Positions 40,882-53,797 of a stretch of DNA of 64,000 nucleotides are shown in pieces; the stretch's first letter is position 1, and every line of letters begins with the position of its first letter. The position numbers and the translations under genes were made by a program. The stretch is from Sphaerotilus montanus (GTDB lineage Bacteria; Pseudomonadota; Gammaproteobacteria; Burkholderiales; Burkholderiaceae_C), in contig NZ_JACCFH010000001.1 of the NCBI RefSeq assembly GCF_013410775.1, positions 1,860,001-1,924,000 of the forward strand. The letters are read 5' to 3'. The notes under the pieces were generated by a model. That model was given only the letters and a program-made list of their open reading frames with translations. It searched no databases and was not told where the DNA came from.

Positions 40882-41595
40882 TCAGCGTGCGCCGCTGCCC
40901 AGCAACACCACCCGCAAGGTGTGGACCAGGATGCTCAGGCGCATGCGCAAGCTGTGCTTTTCGACAAACACGCGGTCAAGTTCAACCCTTTCTTCGTACG
41001 TCGTGTCGTTGCGGCCGCTGACCTGCCACAGACCGGTCATGCCCGGACGCACGCTCAGGTAGTGCCAGCGCACCTGGCCATAGCGCGGCAGCTCCGCCAG
41101 CGTGATCGGCCGCGGCCCCACCAGGCTCATCTCGCCACGCAGCACGTTGAAGAGCTGCGGCAGCTCGTCCAGGCTGGTGCGGCGCAGGAAGTCGCCGATC
41201 GGCGTGATGCGCGGATCGTTCAGCAGCTTGTGGTCGCGCTCCCATTCGGCGCGCGCGTTGGCATCTTTTTCCAGCAGATCGCGCAGCATGGCGTCGGAAT
41301 CGAGGTACATGCTGCGGAACTTCAGGCAGCGGAACAGCTTGCCGTGCTGGCCGATCCGGTAGTGGCCGAACAGGATGGGCGCGCCGTCCTTGCGCCAGAT
41401 CAGCAGTGCAACGACCAGGAACACGGGGCTGAACAGCAGCAGCAGCACGGCCGCCATGCCCTGGTCCAGACGCAGGTGCAGTCGCTCCAGCCAGCGCGAA
41501 TGCTTCGGCTGGCGTTGCTGGCGGAACTGCCGGGCACCCGCCACGAACGCGTTCAGAGAGGGGTGGTCTGCCAGGTGTTCCTGTTTCTTTTCCAT
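40882..41595 (-). CDS. Undecaprenyl-phosphate sugar-1-phosphate transferase (priming enzyme)
   Basis: From the ATG at 41595 (GGGAAG about 8 bases upstream) the protein has 237 residues. One membrane hairpin (AAVLLLLFSPVFLVVALLIW) is followed by the bacterial sugar transferase domain with KFRSMYLDSD, RRTSLDELPQLFNVLRGEMSLVGPRP and VRPGMTGLWQVSGRN. It lacks the large N-terminal part of WcaJ, so it is a minimal PglC-like phosphoglycosyl transferase. It loads the first sugar onto the lipid carrier, starting the repeat unit of the locus read divergently from 41944. Confidence 0.93.
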   Translation of the reverse strand: MEKKQEHLADHPSLNAFVAGARQFRQQRQPKHSRWLERLHLRLDQGMAAVLLLLFSPVFLVVALLIWRKDGAPILFGHYRIGQHGKLFRCLKFRSMYLDSDAMLRDLLEKDANARAEWERDHKLLNDPRITPIGDFLRRTSLDELPQLFNVLRGEMSLVGPRPITLAELPRYGQVRWHYLSVRPGMTGLWQVSGRNDTTYEERVELDRVFVEKHSLRMRLSILVHTLRVVLLGSGAR

Positions 41596-41854
41596 ACAAA
41601 TTCTTCCCGTATGTTGCAAGCGATGTCAGGGCTGCCACGCTTTGATGCATTATTCACGCGTTGTCTCGCGTAGAGATGAAGTGACATCTATTCGCAGGTT
41701 TCTTCGGTCTTTTGACTTCATTCGTGGTTCATTTCGAACGATAAACCATCTACCACCGAAAAATTTGTCAGTACCGGTTCGTATTTTCCTGTTCGGGTGC
41801 GGCGACCCCGCGCTTCGATAGGGCAGGTGTTGACGTTCTCACGTGTCTGGAGGG

Positions 41855-41874
41855 TGGCTTACCTGGGTAAACCA
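41855..41874. promoter_or_regulatory. 20-bp palindromic operator candidate
   Basis: TGGCTTACC-TG-GGTAAACCA: 8 of 9 arm positions pair. It lies 70 bp before the epsF start in the divergent promoter region. The size and symmetry fit a dimeric regulator site. I do not recognise the consensus. Confidence 0.55.
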
Positions 41875-41910
41875 GTCCCCAATTCACACAAGAGACCGGA
41901 AGTCCGGAAC

Positions 41911-41924
41911 TTGTAAAGTTACAA
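41911..41924. promoter_or_regulatory. Perfect 14-bp palindrome near the epsF start
   Basis: TTGTAA-AG-TTACAA, a perfect 6-bp inverted repeat with a 2-bp centre, 20 bp before the epsF ATG. At this place it could block initiation if bound by a repressor. Confidence 0.4.
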
Positions 41925-41943
41925 CCTGTAAGCTCATCAATCC

Positions 41944-43401
41944 ATGTCACTTGCCCGATTCCTGTTGACGCTGAAGGCGCGATGGCTCACCGCTGTCCTG
42001 GTGCTGGCCACCGTGCTGGCCGTGACTGCGCTGGTCAGTGCCCTGCTGCCCAAGCAGTACTCCGCCACCTCGATGGTGCTCGTGGACATCAAGTCGGCCG
42101 ATCCGCTGGCGGTGTCGGCGCAGCAGCAGCAGTCGGGCCAGGCGGCGGCCTACATGGCGACCCAGGTCGACCTGATCCAGAGCGAGCGGGTGGCCCGCGC
42201 GGTCATGGCCGCGACCGGCATGACGCGCGATCCGAACGACGCCACCCACCAGCTCTGGCGCAGCAAGACCGGTGGCGTCGGCGACTTCGAGGAGTGGCAG
42301 GCCGCGCGGATGAAGAAGAAGCTCGATGTGCGGCCGACCAAGGAGTCCGGCATCATTTCCATCGGCTACACCGCCGACGACCGCCAGTCCGCCGCACAGA
42401 TCGCGAACGCCTACGTGCAGGCCTATGTCGACACCAGCCTGGCCCTGCGTGTCGAGCCGGCGCGCACCAGCACCACCTTCTTCGACGAACGCGCCACCCA
42501 GCTGCGCGCCTCGCTGGACGCTGCCCAGGCGAAGCTGTCGGACTTCCAGCGCCAGCACGGCCTGCTGACCATCGGCGGCGCGGAGGAGCGGCTGGACGTC
42601 GAGACGGCGCGTCTCAACGAGCTGTCGTCACAGCTCGTGTCGCTGCAGGCACAGACCGGCGAGTCCGGCAGCCGCCAGTCGCAGGCGCGTGCCAACCCGG
42701 AAAAGTCGCCCGAGGTGATCAACAACCCGGTCATCAGCGGGCTCTCGGCCGAAGTGCTGCGCCAGGAGACGCGCCTGAACGAGATGAGCGCCCGCCTCGG
42801 CGACCGCCATCCGTCGATCGTCGAGCAGCGCGCCGCCGTCGCGCAGCTGCGCAGCCAGCTGGCGTCGGAGTCGCGCCGCGTGGCCGCCAGCCTGGGGGTC
42901 AGCGACACGGTGAACCAGCAGCGCCTGGCGCAGGTCCGTGCTTCGCTGGAGGCCCAGCGCACCAAGGTGCTCGAACTCACCACGCGCCGCGACGAGGCCC
43001 GCGTGCTGCAGAAGGATGTGCAGAACGCGCAGTCCGCCTTCGACGCCGTGACCGGCCGCAGCACGCAGAGCGCCACCGAAAGCCAGGCGCGCATGAGCAA
43101 CGTCTCGGTGCTGAAGACCGCGACCCCGCCGGCGCTGGCCTCGTCGCCGCAGATGGACGTGAACCTGGGCGTCGCTGCGCTGCTGGGCTCGGTGCTGGCG
43201 CTGGTGGTGGTGCTGGTGCAGGAGCAGCGCAACCGCCGGCTGCGCTGCGCCGACGACGTGCCCGAACTGCTCGACCTGCCGCTGCTGGTCGAGATCCCGT
43301 CGCGCCACCGTGCCGGCGGCGCGGGCCAGGGGCTGTCACTGCCCGGGCTCGGCGGGCCACGGCCTCCATCTGGCACCCCCAAGGGCCGCCTGCCGGCGTG
43401 A
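41944..43401 (+). CDS. epsF: Chain-length determinant protein, EpsF-like (Wzz/Wzc periplasmic part)
   Basis: The protein has 485 residues: membrane helix 1 (about 14-36), a long periplasmic coiled coil with the Wzz-type N-terminal pattern YSATSMVLVDIKSADPL, and helix 2 (about 405-425; VAALLGSVLALVVVLVQ) followed by a Pro/Gly-rich cytosolic tail of about 60 residues. It lacks a kinase domain, which is encoded by the next gene, as in the EpsF/EpsG split systems. It sets polymer length together with the flippase and polymerase. It is the first gene of the plus-strand operon. Confidence 0.9.
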   Translation: MSLARFLLTLKARWLTAVLVLATVLAVTALVSALLPKQYSATSMVLVDIKSADPLAVSAQQQQSGQAAAYMATQVDLIQSERVARAVMAATGMTRDPNDATHQLWRSKTGGVGDFEEWQAARMKKKLDVRPTKESGIISIGYTADDRQSAAQIANAYVQAYVDTSLALRVEPARTSTTFFDERATQLRASLDAAQAKLSDFQRQHGLLTIGGAEERLDVETARLNELSSQLVSLQAQTGESGSRQSQARANPEKSPEVINNPVISGLSAEVLRQETRLNEMSARLGDRHPSIVEQRAAVAQLRSQLASESRRVAASLGVSDTVNQQRLAQVRASLEAQRTKVLELTTRRDEARVLQKDVQNAQSAFDAVTGRSTQSATESQARMSNVSVLKTATPPALASSPQMDVNLGVAALLGSVLALVVVLVQEQRNRRLRCADDVPELLDLPLLVEIPSRHRAGGAGQGLSLPGLGGPRPPSGTPKGRLPA

Positions 43402-43403
43402 AC

Positions 43404-44306
43404 ATGGACATGAAACGCGACTTCGAACTCAGCCGGGTCTCGCCGATCGAGGAAGCCCTTTTCACGGTCGAGCCGCAGCACACGCTGAGCCTGGGCGACA
43501 TCCTGCGCCGCCAGTGCCAGCTCGGGGACGCGGAGGTGGCGCGCATCGTGACGCTGCAGGCCGAGCGCGGGCTGCGCTTCGGGGACGCGGCGGTGGCGCT
43601 GCGCCTGGTGCAGCCGGACGATGTGGCGCAGGCGCTGGCGCGGCAGTTCAGCTACGCCTGCACCACCGTGCAGGCGGCGCCGCACCTGGCGGAGCTGGCC
43701 GCGGCCGTCGACCCGCACGGCGACAAGGCGGAGATCTTCCGCGACCTGCGCGCCCAGATCATGCTGCGCCCCGGGGGTACGGAGCCGGTGGCGCTCGCCG
43801 TGGTCAGCCCCACGCCGGGGGACGGGCGCACCCACATCGCCGCCAACCTCGCGGTGGTGTTCAGCCAGATGGGCCAGCGCACGGTGCTGGTGGACGCCAA
43901 CCTGCGCGCGCCACGGCTGCACACGCTGTTCGACCTGCCGTCGCGGCCCGGCCTGACCGCGATCCTGGCCGACCGGCAGGTGGCGGGCGAGCTGGACCGC
44001 ATCGATGCGCTGCCGAACCTGCACGTGCTGCAGGTCGGCGCACCGCCGCCGAATCCGCAGGAGCTGGTGCAGCGCGAGACCTTCCGCACGCTGCTGCGCG
44101 AGCTGACCCGCAAGTTCGACCGCGTCATCGTCGACACGCCGGCCGCACAGGGGGCCGCCGACGCCCGCGTGATCGCCACCGCCTGCACGCAGGCGCTGGT
44201 CGTCGGCCGACGCGACCACAGTGCCGCGGCACACCTGCGCGCGCTGGTCGAGGGCCTGCGTGCCCAGCGGGTCGATCTGGTCGGCGTGGTGCTGAACACG
44301 CACTGA
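43404..44306 (+). CDS. epsG: EpsG-like BY-kinase-family ATPase with MshEN-like N-terminus
   Basis: From the ATG at 43404 (GTG at 43398 or ATG at 43410 possible) the protein has 300 residues. Residues about 28-84 form an MshEN/T2SSE_N-like domain (LGDILRRQ...RFGDAAVALRLV...DVAQALARQ). The ATPase domain follows: Walker A GDGRT at 139-143 with Arg where Lys is usual, Walker A' VLVDANLR (161-168) with Asn where a second Asp is usual, and Walker B RVIVDTP. There is no Tyr-rich tail. It should partner EpsF as a cytosolic chain-length co-regulator, but its kinase activity is doubtful. Confidence 0.85.
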   Translation: MDMKRDFELSRVSPIEEALFTVEPQHTLSLGDILRRQCQLGDAEVARIVTLQAERGLRFGDAAVALRLVQPDDVAQALARQFSYACTTVQAAPHLAELAAAVDPHGDKAEIFRDLRAQIMLRPGGTEPVALAVVSPTPGDGRTHIAANLAVVFSQMGQRTVLVDANLRAPRLHTLFDLPSRPGLTAILADRQVAGELDRIDALPNLHVLQVGAPPPNPQELVQRETFRTLLRELTRKFDRVIVDTPAAQGAADARVIATACTQALVVGRRDHSAAAHLRALVEGLRAQRVDLVGVVLNTH

Positions 44307-44337
44307 TCCCGCACCGAACCGCCACCACCCCGTGCCC

Positions 44338-45582
44338 ATGGCCGTTGCCTCCGACCGCGCCTCCACCGTGCGCAAGCTGATCGAGCTGGCGATGACCCAC
44401 GTCGCCACGTTCGCCTTCCCGCTGGTCTTCGCGGTGATCTGCGGGCGCACGCTCGGCATCCACGACTACGGCATCGTGTCCTTCTACGCCGCGCTGGCGG
44501 CCTTCCTCGGCATGGTCATCGAATTCGGCTTCGACTGGTACGGCATCCGCGAGGTGGCGCGCCACCAGGGCGATCCGGCCGGCGTGCACCGCATCCTGTG
44601 GAACATCACCGCGGCCAAGCTGCTGCTGTGCGCGGGGGTGGTGGGCGTGGCGGGTGGCGCGCTGTGGCAGTTGCGGGCGCATGCCGAGTGGCCGCTGATG
44701 CTGGCGTCCAGCGCCTACCTGGTCGGCTTCGCCTTCGATGCGGGCTGGTACGTGCGGGCGCTGGAGCAGACGCGCCTGCTGCTGCTCATCACCAGCGGCG
44801 TGCGGCTGGTCGGCATCGTGGTGCTGCTGACGGTGGTGCCGCGGGTGGCGACGATGGAGAGCGCGCTCGGTGTCTACGCGCTGGTGTCGCTGCTGACCAG
44901 CGGCGTGACCTGGTTCTTCCTGGCGCAGCGCGGGCTGGTGCAGCGCTCGCGTGTCGAGCGGCGCTACATCGGGCAGCTGCTGCGCAGCTCCTCGGCCATC
45001 GTGTTCGGCAACGTCAATGGCGCGATGCTCACCAACGGCGGCATCGCGCTGCTGGGCATGCACGCCGATCCGGCCACCGTCGGCGCGGCCAACCTTGCGC
45101 TGCGGGTGCGCATGGCGGGGCAGGCGGTGATGCTGCCGGTGCAGCAGCTGGGCTTCGTGCGCATCTCCGGGCTGGCCTCGCGCACGCCGCTGGCGGCGAT
45201 GGCCCTGGGCAGTCGGCTGATGGTGGTGACGCTGGCGATCGGCACGGTGATCAGCATGGTCTGCATGGCCACGGCGCCGCTCATCGCGCGCTACGTGTTC
45301 AAGACCGAGGTGCCGATCGCCGTGATGCTGATCCTGCTGCTGGCCTTCAGCATCCCGATCCAGGGCATGTCCAGCCTGTTCGGCATGCAGTCGCTGATCG
45401 CGCTCGGTCAGGAGCGCCGCTACGCGCTGATCCAGCTCGCGGCGACGCTGGCGTTCTGCGCCTGCCTGTTCCTGATCGACCAGGGCAGCGCCTATGGCTG
45501 GGCGATCATCGGCGCCGAGGCGACGGTGATGCTGCTCTCGGCGGGTGTGCTGATCCGTTTGCGCGGGGAGATGGTGGCATGA
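44338..45582 (+). CDS. wzx: Polysaccharide repeat-unit flippase (Wzx-like)
   Basis: From the ATG at 44338 (GTG at 44332 also possible) the protein has 414 residues and about twelve membrane helices. The N-terminal KLIELAMTHVATFAFPLVFAVICGRTLG followed by the DYGIVSFYAALAAFLGMVIEFGFDWYG block is the polysaccharide biosynthesis/MATE-like signature of Wzx proteins. It would flip undecaprenyl-PP-linked repeat units to the periplasm. It overlaps the polymerase gene by 4 bp. Confidence 0.92.
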   Translation: MAVASDRASTVRKLIELAMTHVATFAFPLVFAVICGRTLGIHDYGIVSFYAALAAFLGMVIEFGFDWYGIREVARHQGDPAGVHRILWNITAAKLLLCAGVVGVAGGALWQLRAHAEWPLMLASSAYLVGFAFDAGWYVRALEQTRLLLLITSGVRLVGIVVLLTVVPRVATMESALGVYALVSLLTSGVTWFFLAQRGLVQRSRVERRYIGQLLRSSSAIVFGNVNGAMLTNGGIALLGMHADPATVGAANLALRVRMAGQAVMLPVQQLGFVRISGLASRTPLAAMALGSRLMVVTLAIGTVISMVCMATAPLIARYVFKTEVPIAVMLILLLAFSIPIQGMSSLFGMQSLIALGQERRYALIQLAATLAFCACLFLIDQGSAYGWAIIGAEATVMLLSAGVLIRLRGEMVA

Positions 45583-46883
45583 AGACGTCCACGCCCATGG
45601 CCATGCCCATGCCCTGGTGGTGCTCGCCGGCCGGCATCGCCGTCGGCTTCCTGCTGCCGCTGATGGTGCTGATCTCGTACGCGGGCGATCTGCCCCATCC
45701 GGCGCTGACGCTTCGCGGCGTGCAGGCGCTCGATGCGCATTACCTGCAGCTCGGCGCGATGATGATCCTCGCCATCGCGCTGACGGGCTGGCTGGGGGCG
45801 CAACTGCAGTTCGGCGCGACGCCCGCATCGCGCGATGTGCGCGCCTGGGACCGGGCCGCGCTGGGCCTGGGCGGCATCGCGACCTTTGCGTTCGTCATCT
45901 GGTTCCGCGACTTCGTGTTCAACCCGGTGCTGCTGTTCCAGACCCTGACCGGCGCGTTCAAGCCCGACCGCAACACCATCGAGCTGACGCCGGGTCTGAC
46001 CTCGCTGGCCAACATGGGTCCGGTGTTCTTCTCGGTCTACGCCTTCCGGCTCTTCGACAAGGGCGAACGTGCGCTGCCCCGCGCCATGCATGTGATGTTC
46101 GTGGTGCTGGGGCTGTTCACGCTGTTCCGCGTCTACGTCTGGACCGAGCGGCTGGCGCTGATCGAGCTGCTGGTGCCCTTCGGGCTGACCGTCGGGCGCT
46201 GGACCTCGACACGCAGTGGCGGCGGCTGGACGCTGGCCCGCACGGTCGGACCGTATGCGGCCATCCCGATGGTGATCCTGTTCTTCGGTGCCAGCGAGTA
46301 CTTCCGGTCGTGGTCGTCCGACACCTACCAGGGCAAGATGGATTTCTGGGAATTCGCCCTCGGCCGCTTCGCGAGCTACTACTACACCTCGCTGAACAAT
46401 GGCGCCGGCCTGCTGGCCAACATGCCCTGGCCGACCGGGACCTTCGAGTTCACGCTGGAGTGGCTGCACCGCGCGCCCTTCGGCCTGGGCAAGCCGTTCT
46501 CGCAGGCGGTCGGCTACACGGTGCCGCGGCTGGACTACTACCTCGCGACCTACCAGGACGAGGAGTTCAACAGCCCTTCCGGCATCTACGGCCCGCTGTC
46601 CGACATGGGGATCTACGGCGGCCTGGCCTACATGCTGGCCATCGGGCTGGTCAGCGGGCTGTGCTTCCGGGCCTACCGCGAGGCGCGGCTGGTGGGCGTG
46701 CTGTTCTATCCGATCTTCTTCATCACCTTCATGGAGATCTACCGCTACCCCTATCTCGGCGTGCCGCGGGCCTTCACCTGGACGCTGGGCATCGGGCTGG
46801 CGCTGCTGCTGGCCTCCACGGTGAAACCGATTCCTGCGCCGCGGCGAACCGCCGGCGACTCTTCCGCGCACCCGGCGAGCTGA
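45579..46883 (+). CDS. wzy: Exopolysaccharide polymerase (Wzy-like)
   Basis: From the ATG at 45579 the protein has 434 residues and about ten to twelve membrane helices. A large polar segment between about 245 and 340 (SEYFRSWSSDTYQGKMDFWEF onward) is probably the periplasmic loop of a polymerase. The conserved late motif is SGIYGPLSDMGIYGGLAYML. Wzy proteins share little sequence; assignment rests on topology, the loop and the position right after the flippase. It would join repeat units in the periplasm. Confidence 0.8.
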   Translation: MKTSTPMAMPMPWWCSPAGIAVGFLLPLMVLISYAGDLPHPALTLRGVQALDAHYLQLGAMMILAIALTGWLGAQLQFGATPASRDVRAWDRAALGLGGIATFAFVIWFRDFVFNPVLLFQTLTGAFKPDRNTIELTPGLTSLANMGPVFFSVYAFRLFDKGERALPRAMHVMFVVLGLFTLFRVYVWTERLALIELLVPFGLTVGRWTSTRSGGGWTLARTVGPYAAIPMVILFFGASEYFRSWSSDTYQGKMDFWEFALGRFASYYYTSLNNGAGLLANMPWPTGTFEFTLEWLHRAPFGLGKPFSQAVGYTVPRLDYYLATYQDEEFNSPSGIYGPLSDMGIYGGLAYMLAIGLVSGLCFRAYREARLVGVLFYPIFFITFMEIYRYPYLGVPRAFTWTLGIGLALLLASTVKPIPAPRRTAGDSSAHPAS

Positions 46884-46886
46884 TCC

Positions 46887-47969
46887 ATGCATGACCCGTC
46901 CCCCCGCCCCGCTCCCCGGCTGAGCATCGTCATCGACAACTACAACTACGAGCAGTTCGTCGCCCGTGCCATCGACTCCGCGCTGGAGCAGACGGTGGCC
47001 GACCTGACCGAGGTGATCGTGGTCGACGATGGTTCGACCGACCGCTCGATGGCCGTGATCGCCCCCTATGCCGACCGGGTGCGCGTCATCGACAAGCCCA
47101 ATGGCGGGCAGGCCTCGGCCTACAACGCCGGCTTTGCCGCGGCGCGCGGCCAGCTGGTGCTCTTCCTCGATGCCGACGACTGGCTCTACCCGGATGCGGC
47201 CGCCGAGATCATCGCCGCGTGGACGCCGGGGACCTCCAAGGTGCAGTTCCTGCTGGACATGGTGGACGGTGCCGGCGATCCGCTGCACCGCCAGGTGCCG
47301 CGCGAGCTGCACGACACCGAGGCCGCCCGGCTCATGCGCACGTGCGGGGCCTACGGCTCGCCTCCGGGCTCGGGCAATGCCTACGACCGCGACTACCTGC
47401 GCCAGGTGATGCCGCTGGACGAGTCCGCGTGGCGCACGGGTGCCGACTCGGTGCCGATCCTGCTGGCACCGGCCTGCGGGCAGGTCCGTTCGTTGCGGCG
47501 CGCCCTGGGGGCGTACCGCATCCACCGTGCGCTCGACGACGATGCACTGGTCTTCAACAACTACTCCGGCAGCTTGCTCTCCGAATACCTGCGCATCACC
47601 GCGGGCAAGCGGGCCGTCGCCGAGGGGCTGGACCGGCTGGGCCTGCCGCGGGCCGAGCCGCTCGGGCTGGCGCCCTGGGAAGCGCGCACGGTGGCCATGT
47701 GTGCCCGCTTCGGCGGACCGCAGGCGAGGGCGCTCATGCAGCCGTCGCCGGGGGCGGTGGTCCGGCATGCGCTCGATTCGGTGTGCCGCTGGCCGCTGAT
47801 CACGGTGCGGCGCAAGGTGCAACTGGTGGTGTGGATGCTGGGGGTGGCCGCACTGCCGCTGCCGCTGGCGCACCGGCTGGCCCGGATGCACCGCCGCTCC
47901 GCCGGCTTGCCGGACCACTCGGCCCACGCGGCGGCGGCGCGGCTGGCCGCGATGAAGTCGCATGGCTGA
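46887..47969 (+). CDS. GT2 family glycosyltransferase
   Basis: The protein has 360 residues with a GT-A fold: LSIVIDNYNYEQFVARAIDSAL at the start, VIVVDDGSTDRS (nucleotide-binding DDGS), KPNGGQASAYNAGF and the metal-binding FLDADDW. The C-terminal half (from about 230) is variable and basic. It adds one sugar to the lipid-linked repeat unit on the cytosolic side. It follows wzy by 3 bp and overlaps the next gene by 8 bp. Confidence 0.92.
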   Translation: MHDPSPRPAPRLSIVIDNYNYEQFVARAIDSALEQTVADLTEVIVVDDGSTDRSMAVIAPYADRVRVIDKPNGGQASAYNAGFAAARGQLVLFLDADDWLYPDAAAEIIAAWTPGTSKVQFLLDMVDGAGDPLHRQVPRELHDTEAARLMRTCGAYGSPPGSGNAYDRDYLRQVMPLDESAWRTGADSVPILLAPACGQVRSLRRALGAYRIHRALDDDALVFNNYSGSLLSEYLRITAGKRAVAEGLDRLGLPRAEPLGLAPWEARTVAMCARFGGPQARALMQPSPGAVVRHALDSVCRWPLITVRRKVQLVVWMLGVAALPLPLAHRLARMHRRSAGLPDHSAHAAAARLAAMKSHG

Positions 47970-49053
47970 TCCGGTGAACCCGACCATGCTGATCAACGCC
48001 CGCTTCCTCACCCGCCAGGCCACTGGCGTGGACCGTTTCGCCATCGAGCTGCTGCAGGCTGGCCTGCAGGCCGGTCTGCTGCCGCAGGCACAGGCCGTGG
48101 TGCCGGCCGAAGCGACGCTGGTGACCCCTGCGCCCAAGGGTCTGGCCGTGCGCCACGCCGGTCGCCACGGCGGCCACCGCTGGGAGCAGTTCGAGCTGCC
48201 CGCACTCGCTGCGGCGGCGGGCGAGGTGCCGCTGGTGAACCTGTGCAACACCGCGCCGCTGCGCCACCGCCGCCAGATCGCAGTGATCCACGATGCCGCC
48301 GCGGTGGCCAATCCGCAGAACTACAGCTTCGCCTTCCGGCAGTGGTACCGCGTGATGATCGGCTCGCTGATGCGCCGCAGCCGGGTCATCGCCACCGTCT
48401 CGCGCTTCAGTGCCGACGAGCTGACGCGCCACTTCGGCGCCCACCACCATGGCATCGAGGTCATCCCCGAGGGCGGCGAGCACATCCTGCGCCTGCCGGC
48501 GGACCCGACCGTGTTCGAGCGGCTCGACCTGCGCGGACGGCGCTACGTGCTGGCGGTGGGCAGCCTGTCGCTGAACAAGAACTTCGCTGCCGTGCTGAAC
48601 GCGATGAGCCTGATCGACGACCCGGACACCGTGCTGGTCGCGGCCGGCGGCGGCAACACGCGCATCTTCACCGACAGCGCCGTGCAGCACGAGCGCCTGC
48701 AGCGCACCGGCTACGTCAGCGACCAGCAGCTGCGTGCGCTCTACGAGGGGGCGGTGTGTTTCGTGTTCCCGTCGTTCTACGAGGGCTTCGGCCTGCCACC
48801 GCTGGAGGCCATGTGCTGCGGCTGCCCGGTGATCGTGTCGGACCGCGCCTCGCTGCCCGAGGTCTGCGCCGACGCGGCCCTCTACTGCAACCCCGACGAT
48901 CCCGCCACGCTGGCTGCGCAGCTGCGCCGCGTGCTGGGCTCGCCCGCCCTGACCGACGAGCTGCGCACGCGCGGCTACCAGCGCGCGGCACAGCTCACCT
49001 GGGACCGCGCTGCGCGCGAGTTCGCCGAGCTGATGGATCTGCATTTCGCCTGA
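47962..49053 (+). CDS. GT4 family glycosyltransferase
   Basis: The protein has 363 residues with a GT-B fold. N-terminal NARFLTRQATGVDRFAIELL is followed by the acceptor-side IHDAAAVANPQNYS, VIATVSRFSADEL, then YVLAVGSLSLNKNF and the donor-site FPSFYEGFGLPPLEAMCCGCPVIVSD, with an intact E-x7-E pair. It builds part of the repeat unit. It overlaps the preceding GT2 gene by 8 bp and is followed by the GT4-ATPase fusion after 17 bp. Confidence 0.92.
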   Translation: MADPVNPTMLINARFLTRQATGVDRFAIELLQAGLQAGLLPQAQAVVPAEATLVTPAPKGLAVRHAGRHGGHRWEQFELPALAAAAGEVPLVNLCNTAPLRHRRQIAVIHDAAAVANPQNYSFAFRQWYRVMIGSLMRRSRVIATVSRFSADELTRHFGAHHHGIEVIPEGGEHILRLPADPTVFERLDLRGRRYVLAVGSLSLNKNFAAVLNAMSLIDDPDTVLVAAGGGNTRIFTDSAVQHERLQRTGYVSDQQLRALYEGAVCFVFPSFYEGFGLPPLEAMCCGCPVIVSDRASLPEVCADAALYCNPDDPATLAAQLRRVLGSPALTDELRTRGYQRAAQLTWDRAAREFAELMDLHFA

Positions 49054-49070
49054 GCCTGAGGAGCCACCCC

Positions 49071-51434
49071 ATGCAAGCCCCCCTCCGTGTTGCCCTGGTG
49101 CATGAATGGCTGGTCAACCACGCCGGCAGCGAAAAAGTCGTCGAGGAGATCCTGAAGATCTACCCGCAGGCTGACCTGTTTTCAGTGGTTGATTTCCTGA
49201 AGCCGCACGAGCGCGGTTTCCTGCAGGGCAAGGTTGCCAAGACCACGTTCGTGCAGCGCCTGCCCGGCGCCGAAAAGCGCTTCCGCCACTACCTGCCGCT
49301 GATGCCGCTGGCGATGGAGCAGCACGACCTGTCCGGCTACGACCTGGTGCTGTCGTCCAGCCACGCCGTCGCCAAGGGTGTGCTCACGGGACCGGACCAG
49401 CTCCACGTCTGCTACATCCATTCGCCGATCCGCTACGCCTGGGACATGCAGCACCAGTACCTGAAGGAATCGGGCATGGCCAGCGGCGTCAAGGGCACGG
49501 TGGCCAAGCTGCTGCTGCACTACATGCGGCTGTGGGACGCCCGCACCGCGGCCGGTGTCGACCAGTTCCTCGCCAATTCGGCCTTCATCGGGCGCCGGGT
49601 GCGCAAGGTCTACCGGCGCGACGCGGAGGTGATCCACCCGCCGGTCGATGTCGAGCGCTTCGCACTGCGCACCGACAAGGAAGACTTCTACCTCACCGCC
49701 TCGCGCATGGTCCCGTACAAGCGCATGCCGATGATCGTCGAGGCCTTCTCGCGCATGCCCGACAAGAAGCTCGTCGTCATCGGCGACGGGCCGGAGATGG
49801 ACAAGGTGCGCGCCGTGGCCGGGCCGAACGTGTCGGTGCTCGGTTTCCTGGGCGACGCCGCGCTGGTCGACCACATGCAGCGCGCCAAGGCCTTTGTCTT
49901 TGCCGCCGAGGAGGACTTCGGCATCACCCCGGTCGAGGCGCAGGCCTGCGGCACGCCGGTGATCGCCTTCGGGCGGGGCGGCTCGCTGGAGACGGTGCGC
50001 GGCCGAGGCCACCCGGCGCAGCGCACGGGCGTGTTCTTCACGGAGCAGACGCCCGAGGCGGTGATCGCCGCGGTGGAGGCCTTCGAGGCGCTGCCGGTGC
50101 CGATCCGCCCGGAAACCTGCCGCGCGCACGCCGAGCAGTTCGCGCCGGCGCTGTTCCGCCAGCGGTTCCAGGCCGCGGTCGAGCGGGCCTGGGCGCGCTT
50201 CCATGCCGAGCAGGATCCCGAGCACCTGCCCGTGCTCTCCGACGTGCACACGCCGGCCCTGTCGCCGGAGCCGCCGCCGATGCTGCCGTACCCTGTCCTG
50301 ACGCCGATGTCGATTCCGGTGCCCGGATCCAGACCCAGACCCGGCGCCGTGGCGAGGTCGCCCGTGGCGATGGCCGAGCCGGTGGCCGCCGTGGTCGAGG
50401 CGTCTGCGCGGGTGGAGCCGGCACCCATGCCTCCGTCCCCGTCCCCGTCCATGTCGTCTCCCGCCCCCACGCCGATGCCCGCGCCGGCGCCCCCTGCCAT
50501 GTCCCCCTCCGTCTCCGATGCCCCCCGTCCTGATCCGGTCTTCGAGCGGCCGTTCGAGCTGCCGGCGGCCGATGCGCGGCCACGGTCGTCGCCCGGTGCG
50601 CCGGCGGTGCTGCGCCCGCTGGGCGAGATCATCCGCACGATGCGGCCGCTGTCGGATGGCGACATCGCGCACATCCTGGTCGTGCAGCGGCGCATGAAGC
50701 TGCGGTTCGGCGAGGCGGCGGTGGCCCTCGATCTGGTGACGCAGGCCGATGTGCTGTGGGCCTTGTCACAGCAGTTCAACTACCCGTACTCGCTCGACGG
50801 CAACGGGCTGCGGGGTGCGGATCTGGTGGTGGCGGTGGAGCCCTACAGCCCGCAGGCCGAGGCCTTCCGCGACCTGCGCAGCAGGATCATGGCCAACGAC
50901 GCTGCGCAGGGCCGCCAGCCCCTGGCAGTGGTCAGCCCGGACGCGGGGGATGGACGCACCTACGTCGCGGCGAATCTGGCCGTGACCTTCAGCCAGCTCG
51001 GCGAGCGCACGGTGCTGGTGGACGGCAATCTGCGCGATCCCGGCATCCACAAGCTCTTTGGCCTGAAGGAGCGCGCCAGCCTGAGCGACCTGCTCAACGG
51101 CCGCCGCCCCGCCAAGCCCTTCGACCGCTCGGCCGATCTGCCGGGGCTGTTCATCATGCAGGTGGGCGCACCGCCGCCGAACCCGCTGGAGCTGCTGCAG
51201 CAGCCGATGTTCGGCATCCTGCTGCGCGAGCTGCAGCGCGAGTTCGACCGTGTCATCGTCGACACGCCGCCCGCGCGCCACACGGCCGATGCCCGCGTGA
51301 TCGCCGCCACCTGCCGCCAGACGGTGCTGGTCGGTCGCCACGGCAAGACCGAGGCGCAGACGATGAACCTGCTGGTGGACCGTCTGCGCCGCACGCAGGC
51401 GACCATCGCCGGGGTCGTCCTCAATGACCACTGA
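49071..51434 (+). CDS. Fusion protein: GT4 glycosyltransferase + Pro-rich linker + MshEN-like/EpsG-like ATPase
   Basis: One open frame of 787 residues, ATG at 49071 after GAGG. Residues 1-385 are a GT4 enzyme (ALVHEWLVNHAGSEKVVEEI, IHSPIRYAWDM, SRMVPYKRM, donor-site AEEDFGITPVEAQACGTP). Residues about 386-514 are a Pro/Ala/Ser/Met-rich linker. Residues 517-573 resemble MshEN (RFGEAAVALDLVTQADVLWALSQQ). Residues about 590-787 are an EpsG-like ATPase: Walker A GDGRT (626-630), Walker A' VLVDGNLR (648-655), Walker B VIVDTP. The ATPase is a clear paralogue of the one at 43404, sharing QVGAPPPNP and RVIVDTP. No stop or well-placed internal start separates the parts. The last 14 bp overlap the convergent gene. 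Confidence 0.9.
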   Translation: MQAPLRVALVHEWLVNHAGSEKVVEEILKIYPQADLFSVVDFLKPHERGFLQGKVAKTTFVQRLPGAEKRFRHYLPLMPLAMEQHDLSGYDLVLSSSHAVAKGVLTGPDQLHVCYIHSPIRYAWDMQHQYLKESGMASGVKGTVAKLLLHYMRLWDARTAAGVDQFLANSAFIGRRVRKVYRRDAEVIHPPVDVERFALRTDKEDFYLTASRMVPYKRMPMIVEAFSRMPDKKLVVIGDGPEMDKVRAVAGPNVSVLGFLGDAALVDHMQRAKAFVFAAEEDFGITPVEAQACGTPVIAFGRGGSLETVRGRGHPAQRTGVFFTEQTPEAVIAAVEAFEALPVPIRPETCRAHAEQFAPALFRQRFQAAVERAWARFHAEQDPEHLPVLSDVHTPALSPEPPPMLPYPVLTPMSIPVPGSRPRPGAVARSPVAMAEPVAAVVEASARVEPAPMPPSPSPSMSSPAPTPMPAPAPPAMSPSVSDAPRPDPVFERPFELPAADARPRSSPGAPAVLRPLGEIIRTMRPLSDGDIAHILVVQRRMKLRFGEAAVALDLVTQADVLWALSQQFNYPYSLDGNGLRGADLVVAVEPYSPQAEAFRDLRSRIMANDAAQGRQPLAVVSPDAGDGRTYVAANLAVTFSQLGERTVLVDGNLRDPGIHKLFGLKERASLSDLLNGRRPAKPFDRSADLPGLFIMQVGAPPPNPLELLQQPMFGILLRELQREFDRVIVDTPPARHTADARVIAATCRQTVLVGRHGKTEAQTMNLLVDRLRRTQATIAGVVLNDH

Positions 51435-52521
51435 AGCGGCGGCAATCGAGCTGCGCGCCAGGCGTTGTCTGCACGAGGCGGCCGGCCCGCTGGCGCAGGT
51501 CGCCGTGGCGGCTGTGCTCGACCGTGTTGCCCTGCAGCAGGATGTCGCCCAGACCGGCTGCACCGTCCGGCACCGCATGGGTGTGCAGCTCGATGGCCGC
51601 GTGGCCGGTCGGCGCGGCCGTGACGCCGACGCGGGCGGCGGGCGTCTGGATCTCGCGCAGCCGGTTGTGCTCGATGCGGACATCGTGCACGCCGTGGGTG
51701 CGCCAGTTGCCTTCCTGCGCAACCAGCACGCCGGCTGCCCGCGCGATGCCGGTCACCGTGTTGCCGCGCAGCGTGATGTGCGCGCCGCCGACGATGGTCA
51801 GGCCGCGTCCCCAGCGGGCGCCGGAGACGGTGTTGTCGGCGACGAGGATGTCGCGCACCACGGGCTCGTTGTCGTAGGACACGATGGAGATCAGGTCGTC
51901 GCCCACGTCGTGCACCTGGTTGCCGAGCACGCGGCCGTGGCGGCTGCCGCCGGTGGTGTGGATGCCATCGGCCAGCGTGTGGCGCACGGTGTTGCCGGCG
52001 ATGGTGAAGTCGGTCGCACCGTAGACCAGCATGCCCACCGAGCCCGCGCCATCGACGGTCACGCCGCGCACGACATTGCCCCGCTGCGGGGTCGGGCCTT
52101 CGCGGTAGAGGCTGATGCGCGCCTGGGCTGGCTCGCTGCGGCGCTGGTCGGGTGCCGCGGTGAGCGTCAGGCCGTAGAGGCGCACGCCGTCGGCGCGCAG
52201 ACCGAGCGTGTGGTCGCGCGGGTCGGTGGCCTGCAGCGTCGCGCCCGGTCCCCACAGCGTCACGCCCGGCACGCTGACCAGCACGCTGCGCGCCTGCTGG
52301 TAGCGCCCCGGCGGAAACACCAGCCAGCCGCCCGGCTTGAGCGCCTTGAGCGCGCGGTCGATGGCCGCGTCGTCGGCGAGGTCGTCGTCGGCCACCGCCC
52401 CGAAGTCCGTCACCCGCAGCGCCCCCGCCGGCACCGCGGGCAGTGGAGCGAGCACAGCGCAGGCCTGCGCGCTGCCCACGCCCATCCCCAAGGCCACCAA
52501 GCATCCCCTGGAGACCCCCAT
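51421..52521 (-). CDS. Secreted right-handed parallel beta-helix protein
   Basis: From the ATG at 52521 the protein has 366 residues; a further in-frame ATG exists at 52566. A signal peptide (GCLVALGMGVGSAQACA) precedes a pectate-lyase-like start (LRVTDFGAVADDDLADDAAIDRAL). Repeated coils of the parallel beta-helix type follow (VRGVTVDGAGSVGMLVYGA, FTIAGNTVRHTLADGIHTTGG, ITLRGNTVTGI and others). Such proteins bind, cleave or epimerise polysaccharides, so it may trim or modify the polymer made here. It is the only minus-strand gene inside the locus. Its start codon overlaps that of the DegT gene on the other strand. Confidence 0.8.
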   Translation of the reverse strand: MGVSRGCLVALGMGVGSAQACAVLAPLPAVPAGALRVTDFGAVADDDLADDAAIDRALKALKPGGWLVFPPGRYQQARSVLVSVPGVTLWGPGATLQATDPRDHTLGLRADGVRLYGLTLTAAPDQRRSEPAQARISLYREGPTPQRGNVVRGVTVDGAGSVGMLVYGATDFTIAGNTVRHTLADGIHTTGGSRHGRVLGNQVHDVGDDLISIVSYDNEPVVRDILVADNTVSGARWGRGLTIVGGAHITLRGNTVTGIARAAGVLVAQEGNWRTHGVHDVRIEHNRLREIQTPAARVGVTAAPTGHAAIELHTHAVPDGAAGLGDILLQGNTVEHSRHGDLRQRAGRLVQTTPGAQLDCRRFSGH

Positions 52522-53797
52522 GAGCGCTGAGCACCCCGACCGCACGGACCGCACCGACCCACCCATCTACGTCACCCAACCCTTTCTGCCGCCACTGGCG
52601 GAGTTCATGCCCTATCTGGAACAGATCTGGGGCCGCAAGCACATCACCAACGGCGGCCCCTTCCACCAGCAGCTCGAAGCCGAACTGGCCGCCTACCTCG
52701 GCGTGCAGCACCTGGCGCTGTTCACCAACGGCACGCTCGGCCTGCTCACCGCGCTGCAGGCCCTGCGCGTGACCGGCGAAGTCATCACCACGCCGTATTC
52801 CTTCGCCGCCACCGCGCACTCGGTGCTGTGGAACGGCCTGAAGCCCGTCTTCGCCGATATCGACCCGCACACCTGCAATCTGGACCCCGACAGCATCGAG
52901 GCCGCCATCACCCCGCAGACCACGGCCATCATGCCGGTGCACTGCTACGGCCGGCCGTGTGATGTCGAGCGCATCCAGAAGATCGCCGACACCTACGGGC
53001 TGAAGGTGATCTACGACGCCGCGCATGCGTTCGGCGTGCAGTACAAGGGCAAGAGCCTGCTGAACTGGGGCGATCTGTCGGTGCTGAGCTTCCACGCCAC
53101 CAAGGTGTATTCGACCATCGAAGGCGGCGCCATCATCTGCCCGGACGCCAAGACCAAGCAGCGCATCGACTACCTGAAGAACTTCGGCATCGCCGACGAG
53201 GTCACGGTAATGGCCGCGGGCATCAACGGCAAGATGAACGAGGTGCAGGCCGCCTTCGGGCTGATGCAACTGAGGCACGTGGACGACTGCATCGCCCGCC
53301 GCGGCGAGATCGCCCGGCTCTACACGCAGCAGCTCGCCGGCTTGCCGGGCATCCGCGTGCCGGACGAGGCCTTGCACACGGTGCCGAACCACTCGTATTT
53401 CCCCATCTTCATCGGCCCGGACCACCCGCTCAGCCGCGACGCCGTCTACGACCGCCTGCGCCAGCACGGCATCCACGCCCGCCGCTATTTCTACCCGCTG
53501 CTCAGCGACATGCCGATGTACCGCGGCCTGCCGTCGGCCGCCAAGGACCACCTGCCGGTCGCGCACGAGATCGCCGCACAGGTGCTGTGCCTGCCGATCT
53601 ACCCGGCGCTGTCGGATGCGGACGTGCTGCGGGTGGTGGACGTGCTCCGCGGGGCGCTGGTGTACGAAGGATGGCCGGCGCAGACGGTGGCGCAGGATGG
53701 GGTGGCGGCGCCGGCAGCCGTGGGGGAGCCGGTCGCGGCGGGGAGCACGGCCGGGTCGTGGGTCGAGCGGCGTTCGGGGGGCGAGCGGCGGGTCTGA
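52520..53797 (+). CDS. DegT/DnrJ/EryC1 aminotransferase for an amino-sugar
   Basis: From the ATG at 52520 (GGAG six bases upstream) the protein has 425 residues. This PLP enzyme has the sugar-nucleotide aminotransferase pattern: HITNGGPFHQQLEAELAAYLG, LFTNGTLGLLTAL, TTPYSFAATAHS, YDAAHAFGV (PLP Asp) and SFHATKVYSTIEGG, whose Lys is the likely Schiff-base residue. It resembles VioA/FdtB-type enzymes that make 4-amino-4,6-dideoxy or 3-amino-dideoxy sugars, suggesting an amino sugar in the repeat unit. About 45 extra C-terminal residues, Ala/Gly-rich and ending ERRSGGERRV, are not part of the fold. Confidence 0.9.
   Translation: MSAEHPDRTDRTDPPIYVTQPFLPPLAEFMPYLEQIWGRKHITNGGPFHQQLEAELAAYLGVQHLALFTNGTLGLLTALQALRVTGEVITTPYSFAATAHSVLWNGLKPVFADIDPHTCNLDPDSIEAAITPQTTAIMPVHCYGRPCDVERIQKIADTYGLKVIYDAAHAFGVQYKGKSLLNWGDLSVLSFHATKVYSTIEGGAIICPDAKTKQRIDYLKNFGIADEVTVMAAGINGKMNEVQAAFGLMQLRHVDDCIARRGEIARLYTQQLAGLPGIRVPDEALHTVPNHSYFPIFIGPDHPLSRDAVYDRLRQHGIHARRYFYPLLSDMPMYRGLPSAAKDHLPVAHEIAAQVLCLPIYPALSDADVLRVVDVLRGALVYEGWPAQTVAQDGVAAPAAVGEPVAAGSTAGSWVERRSGGERRV

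Follow-up and report, generated by a model that had tools for sequence, protein, structure and literature searches.

A GT4 glycosyltransferase joined in one open frame to an EpsG-like domain in a Sphaerotilus clade

The gene described here lies in a stretch of 64,000 nt from Sphaerotilus montanus (the window; all coordinates refer to it). The source genome comprises 5.07 Mb in three contigs, with a completeness of 100. The gene belongs to a polysaccharide gene cluster, for which the following genes and features were assigned.

40882..41619, minus strand: initiating sugar-phosphate transferase (Bac_transf; Pfam)
41944..43401, plus strand: epsF, membrane co-polymerase without a kinase domain of its own, likely docking partner (TIGR03017, 435.5 bits, above cut-off; C-terminal tail)
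43404..44306, plus strand: epsG1, stand-alone EpsG paralogue of 300 aa (TIGR03029, E 9e-80, 267.7 bits)
44332..45582, plus strand: Wzx-type flippase (PF01943)
45578..46883, plus strand: putative Wzy polymerase (position and hydrophobic sequence only)
46887..47969, plus strand: GT2 glycosyltransferase (Pfam)
47962..49053, plus strand: second GT4 glycosyltransferase, immediately upstream of the fusion (Pfam)
49058..49063, plus strand: Shine-Dalgarno-like GAGGAG ahead of the fusion start (sequence, duplex energy)
49071..51434, plus strand: GT4-linker-EpsG fusion gene of 787 aa (open frame; fusion shared by six genomes)
49071..50210, plus strand: GT4 glycosyltransferase domain with GT-B fold, residues 1-380 (Pfam, PDB sequence match, AlphaFold2, Foldseek)
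50220..50606, plus strand: disordered Pro/Ala/Ser linker, residues 384-512 (pLDDT < 50; composition)
50613..50789, plus strand: MshEN-like N-terminal part of the EpsG domain, residues 515-573 (NF053729, 21 bits, cut-off 38)
50826..51431, plus strand: ATPase domain with BY-kinase fold, residues 586-787 (NCBIfam, PDB sequence match, Foldseek)
50946..50960, plus strand: variant Walker A GDGRT with Arg for Lys, residues 626-630 (sequence, EpsG alignment)
51421..52566, minus strand: beta-helix (pectate-lyase-like) protein, tail to tail with the fusion (Pfam)

The fusion gene is one open frame of 787 codons, with an ATG at 49071 and a stop codon ending at 51434. The duplex energy at its start is -8.4, and the 5th percentile of the background is -6.8. 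The initial annotation, made from the sequence alone, had proposed an in-frame fusion of a full GT4 domain, a disordered linker, an MshEN-like module and an ATPase of the BY-kinase family. The open frame, the Pfam and NCBIfam profiles, AlphaFold2 and Foldseek bear out this architecture as well as the proposed domain boundaries. In the AlphaFold2 model, which was built on an alignment of 36 sequences taken entirely from the window and the fetched loci, residues 384-512 are the sole long stretch with pLDDT values below 50, there are confident folded parts on both sides, and the pTM of the whole protein is 0.53. With Foldseek, one of these parts matched GT-B transferases (5zer, 3c4q, 2gej) and has the GT-B fold, and the other matched the kinase domains of CapAB chimeras, Wzc and Etk (4jmp, 3bfv, 3la6, 3cio) and has the BY-kinase fold. 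The fusion is well supported as a feature, and it is a new domain architecture built from known parts, each half being of a known kind. No description of the joined GT4-EpsG architecture, nor of this polysaccharide cluster, was found in the open-licence literature searched.

Among 13 genomes of the same genus, six contain the fusion in one frame, i.e. the source genome, S. natans ATCC 13338 (G010), S. sulfidivorans D-501 (G006), Leptothrix sp. C29 (G001) and two Sphaerotilus MAGs (G004 and G005). Two further genomes, a Burkholderiaceae MAG (G011) and G012, which is probably S. microaerophilus FB-5, have a cluster of matching gene order (initiating transferase, epsF, wzx, wzy-like, GT2 and GT4) that ends with a stand-alone EpsG. 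The EpsG half of the fusion is 61-62% identical to these two proteins, and the stretches fetched from both genomes contain neither an epsG1 after epsF nor a relative of the fused GT. The fusion was also absent from the stretches fetched from G003 and G007 (68% complete), and from the 3.8 kb loci around weaker EpsG copies that represented G002, G008 and G009.

For a wider view, samples of the family, the order and the phylum were searched. The EpsG half was matched at E <= 1e-80 in 6 of the 299 genomes of the family sample, and three genomes of other genera (G079, G123 and Methylibium sp. Root1272, G190) have an unfused EpsG. The order sample, with at most six candidates scored per genome, contains TIGR03029 matches at E <= 1e-30 in 138 of 399 genomes, and at least 105 of the sequences start no later than model position 5, three of them from the source genome. 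Among the 102 full-length EpsG sequences listed from other genomes, eight had frames of at least 480, and none of these eight is fused to a GT. All eight were rejected as fusion candidates; what precedes each of them is an epsF match in a different reading frame. Frame length alone is misleading at this G+C content. In the phylum sample, 8 of 398 genomes had an EpsG at E <= 1e-50 (six of them, including the source genome, were already part of the order sample), and outside the source genome no frame was longer than 401. A profile scan of the genome contigs with the EpsG alignment, which used only two peptide patterns, yielded nine loci. The viral contigs gave no pattern match, and none of 120 plasmid records covered 80% of the query.

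Of 250 family genomes, 14 contain the GT half at E <= 1e-120, and the fusion is present in two of these. For only 2 of the 13 unfused GT-half relatives (L105 and L107, from G063 and G123) is an EpsG present within the fetched flank, on the opposite strand and tail to tail, suggesting that GT and EpsG came to lie side by side repeatedly or have long done so. At the loci of these two other genera (L123, G123:C593, and L105, G063:C494), a relative of the GT half (67-68%) and a separate EpsG (48-50%) are unfused, the EpsG of L105 being cut by the end of the contig or locus. At another locus (L126, G364:C4), EpsG is followed, in frame but past a stop codon, by a GT4-like stretch, possibly an unfused counterpart in reverse order. 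Among the samples searched, the fusion thus occurs in one Sphaerotilus clade only, and the sampling leaves room for fusions elsewhere. Numerous homologues sharing this fusion, which the initial annotation had named as a counterargument, were not found.

Phylogenetic trees were calculated for both halves. In the tree of 43 EpsG sequences, which is midpoint-rooted and has several long branches, the fused domains of all six genomes fall into one clade (99/98), which is the sister group of the stand-alone terminal EpsG of G011 and G012 (100/98). The six epsG1 sequences form a separate clade (100/100), seen in fused genomes only. In the tree of 19 GT sequences, the six fused domains are also one clade (100/99). 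As each of the halves forms one clade, the join happened once. The fetched clusters of G011 and G012 encode no EpsG other than this stand-alone one, and epsG1 is present in all six fused clusters and in neither of the two unfused ones. The trees therefore indicate that the fused EpsG is orthologous to the only EpsG of the sister clusters, and that epsG1 is the extra copy. This speaks against a role of the fused copy as a specialised second regulator, which the initial annotation had considered possible and which we do not favour. As the orthologue is the sole EpsG of the sister clusters, this EpsG lineage can probably serve EpsF alone. An EpsG adjoins epsF in other genera too; epsG1 branches outside both other groups and adjoins epsF, so that it was perhaps lost in G011 and G012.

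Eight clusters could be compared, and epsF is present in all of them, in keeping with the genomic pairing of EpsG and EpsF. No kinase domain was found in the EpsF of the window with Pfam and NCBIfam; thus, a separate partner with a kinase fold is expected. Stand-alone EpsG (TIGR03029) is the partner of EpsF (TIGR03017), and the operon of the fusion likewise encodes an EpsF above the cut-off as well as, at 43404-44306, the stand-alone paralogue that the initial annotation had listed. For the putative Wzy, neither Pfam nor NCBIfam gave a match, and relatives with 36-79% identity are found at the same place in all seven other clusters, a fast divergence that fits a polymer differing between species. 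No Wza-type exporter (Poly_export) is encoded in the cluster (40882-53797), and the four matches of the genome lie elsewhere, so that an exporter encoded outside the cluster may serve this polymer. On the opposite strand, the gene for the beta-helix protein shares 14 bases (51421-51434) with the 3' end of the fusion gene, and a relative of this neighbour is located downstream of the fusion in all five other fused loci.

The GT half matches the Pfam models Glyco_transf_4 (residues 53-196, 35.5 bits, cut-off 28.5) and Glycos_transf_1 (residues 197-345, 75.3 bits, cut-off 26.4), and its best PDB sequence match is 2f9f, named wbaZ-1. The sequence EEDFGITPVEA is invariant in the six fused genomes, and E281 and E289 form the E-x7-E motif of GT4 glycosyltransferases. 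Its relatives are stand-alone WbaZ-like GT4 transferases, which, in contrast to the GT half, have no joined EpsG domain. They include the 13 unfused proteins of the family sample (49-71% identity) and plasmid-borne proteins with 55.7-65.9% identity (20 among the matches listed).

The EpsG half (residues 517-786) spans positions 5-274 of the 274 positions of TIGR03029, with an E value of 1.3e-75 and 254.1 bits, and does not reach the equivalog cut-off of 313.8. It is therefore a relative of this family and no certified equivalog; it differs from stand-alone EpsG in being fused behind a GT4 domain, and the stand-alone paralogue of the same cluster (267.7 bits) is also below the cut-off. The more general model eps_fam (TIGR01007) is matched above its cut-off. 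The MshE-related c-di-GMP motif NF053729 (residues 516-568) scores 21 bits and remains below the cut-off of 38, so that “MshEN-like” is a fair name and c-di-GMP binding is without support.

All six fused EpsG domains have GDGRT as Walker A motif, i.e. Arg in place of Lys, and retain the Walker B motif VIVDTPP and the E..R..R motif, which is ring-forming in CapB and Wzc. VDGNLR is found as Walker A'. The last 20 aligned residues contain no or one Tyr in each of the six, i.e. a Tyr-rich tail is absent. The EpsG half thus has the fold, the Walker B motif and the E..R..R motif in common with the BY-kinases CapB, Wzc and Etk, but differs from them in the Arg of Walker A, in VDGNLR as Walker A', and in lacking a Tyr-rich tail and a membrane part of its own. 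Of the initially proposed ATPase of the BY-kinase family, the fold was recovered, while the term “kinase” is doubtful in view of the altered Walker A motif and the absence of a Tyr-rich tail. The P-loop position is Arg in 18, Lys in 15 and neither in four of the other 37 EpsG sequences, which brings Arg to 24 of 43. The four with neither residue are the EpsG of G016, G019, G510 and G597 (L023, L024, L124 and L125). These values suggest that many “EpsG tyrosine kinases” are pseudokinases, and little or no kinase activity may be the norm for the EpsG family. The wide occurrence of Arg at this position also means that the fused domain may still bind ATP.

The linkers of the six fusions comprise 67, 83, 87, 96, 110 and 130 residues and are 27-81% alike over aligned codons, and both domains are in one frame in all six despite this variation. 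Pro, Ala and Ser account for 56-61% of the linker residues. The fractions of Gly (1-2%) and Arg (1-6%) are lower than those expected from shuffled bases (8-11% and 14-18%, respectively), a departure from base composition that fits a translated frame. The linker contains too few stop codons in its other frames for these to be informative. For the GT domain, dN values of 0.010-0.126 and dS values of 0.040-0.531 were obtained, and for the EpsG domain 0.002-0.153 and 0.113-0.618, with dN < dS in all 15 genome pairs in both cases. Both domains are therefore under purifying selection, which is no proof that the joining itself is selected.

The gene, part of a Wzx/Wzy-type cluster, would encode one cytosolic protein of ~85 kDa. 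Its N-terminal GT4 domain would add one sugar onto the undecaprenyl-linked repeat unit, and the C-terminal EpsG domain would bind the co-polymerase EpsF at the cytosolic tail that ends the latter's C-terminus. The disordered linker of 67-130 residues would allow the transferase to reach its lipid-linked substrate while it is held under the EpsF/Wzy complex, so that repeat-unit assembly would sit beside polymerisation and length control. With Arg in place of the P-loop Lys and without a Tyr-rich tail, docking as a scaffold, in the manner of EcpK and HfsB, appears likelier than tyrosine phosphorylation. Together with the altered motifs of the EpsG half and an EpsF without a kinase domain, two precedents lead us to favour such a tether, with EpsG docked on EpsF and the GT on a flexible arm. 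In Myxococcus, the BY pseudokinase EcpK is described as binding the co-polymerase EpsV and is proposed to be a scaffold; it is without Walker motifs and without Tyr in the C-terminal region, yet matters for exopolysaccharide (PMC12004946). EcpK and HfsB are separate kinase-fold proteins paired with a kinase-less co-polymerase, comparable to the EpsG half and EpsF; however, EcpK has lost all Walker motifs, which are merely altered in the EpsG half, and unlike the latter, neither protein is described with a fused transferase (PMC12004946). In Rhizobium leguminosarum, the co-polymerase PssP2 was found to bind the glycosyltransferase PssC in a two-hybrid assay (PMC4182512). Here, two separate proteins, a co-polymerase and a glycosyltransferase of repeat-unit assembly, are in non-covalent contact, whereas the link in the fusion is covalent (PMC4182512). 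We give about an even chance to the reading that the transferase is docked onto EpsF by the EpsG half and that repeat-unit assembly is thereby coupled to polymerisation and length control. A coupling of this kind, already put forward in the initial annotation, is a reasonable idea.

The stand-alone EpsG beside epsF in all six fused genomes argues against docking, as it could be the real EpsF partner. Both proteins might also form mixed rings on EpsF, which would set the fraction of positions with a tethered transferase, so that, as on a covalent assembly line, a late sugar of the repeat unit would be added solely where polymerisation takes place. This arrangement is unlikely in our estimate; it would explain the second EpsG in all six fused clusters compared with one EpsG in both unfused clusters. 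The most serious competitor of docking, albeit a rather improbable one, is that the fusion is incidental, i.e. that the stop codon between two neighbouring genes was lost once and that the halves work as they would alone, with a flexible linker making the join harmless. The single origin, a linker that is free to change in sequence and length, and the existence of unfused relatives of both halves agree with this, but the fusion has been kept in all six members of the clade, and no re-splitting is seen despite the linker turnover and a synonymous divergence of up to ~0.6 in the domains. Alternatively, the ATPase half could be a switch in cis, with a nucleotide, or c-di-GMP at the MshEN-like part, toggling sugar addition. 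The intact Walker B, a largely intact Walker A in all six and the presence of the MshEN-like module are compatible with a switch; the long disordered linker and the pTM value, which give no hint of a fixed contact between the halves, as well as the sub-threshold c-di-GMP motif, make it quite unlikely.

The initial annotation had raised an internal start that yields two separate proteins. Full-length fusion and free EpsG could indeed both be produced, either from such a start or by cleavage of the linker, as disordered linkers are cleavable. Fair Shine-Dalgarno energies are found in the linkers of two genomes, i.e. the source genome (in-frame GTG down to -7.1, ATG -6.6) and G004 (in-frame GTG at -8.1, near the value of the fusion's own start). 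In contrast, the best internal in-frame codon has -3.0 in G005 and -1.7 in G001, and the sole internal codon better than -2.2 in G006 and G010 is an ATG within the EpsG domain (-6.2). An internal start is thus not conserved across the six genomes by this test, which is weak, as the starts of epsF and wzx are likewise without a signal. We regard two products as very unlikely, though some species may make them. A sequencing error in the linker, another concern of the initial annotation, is excluded by the same in-frame fusion in six genomes, and the probability that an assembly artefact joined two genes is negligible, as the six assemblies comprise that of the source genome, three others without a MAG label and two MAGs.

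The genes for the sheath of sheath-forming bacteria are described as poorly understood (PMC13386937), and the product of the cluster may be the sheath or a free exopolysaccharide. A glycosyltransferase gene of S. natans, sthA, has been reported to be essential, and S. microaerophilus FB-5 has a relative at 78% (PMC11087309). The GT half has no match in G012 at E <= 1e-100, which makes it unlikely that the fusion is sthA. As sthA may be an initiating transferase, the initiating-transferase genes of G010 and G012 were compared, leaving out one sequence from each genome that had no locus; the best pairs were 81.9, 60.5 and 69.9% identical and the fourth G010 sequence reached 59.5%, and none could be named sthA.

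It is a standing question whether repeat-unit glycosyltransferases work inside one complex with Wzx, Wzy and the co-polymerase, for which a two-hybrid contact is direct evidence (as reported in PMC4182512). Occurring naturally, the covalent fusion hints, in the manner of a “Rosetta stone”, that repeat-unit glycosyltransferases can do so. For the sheath-forming Sphaerotilus bacteria that carry it, it suggests that sugar addition may be physically coupled to the control of polymer length.
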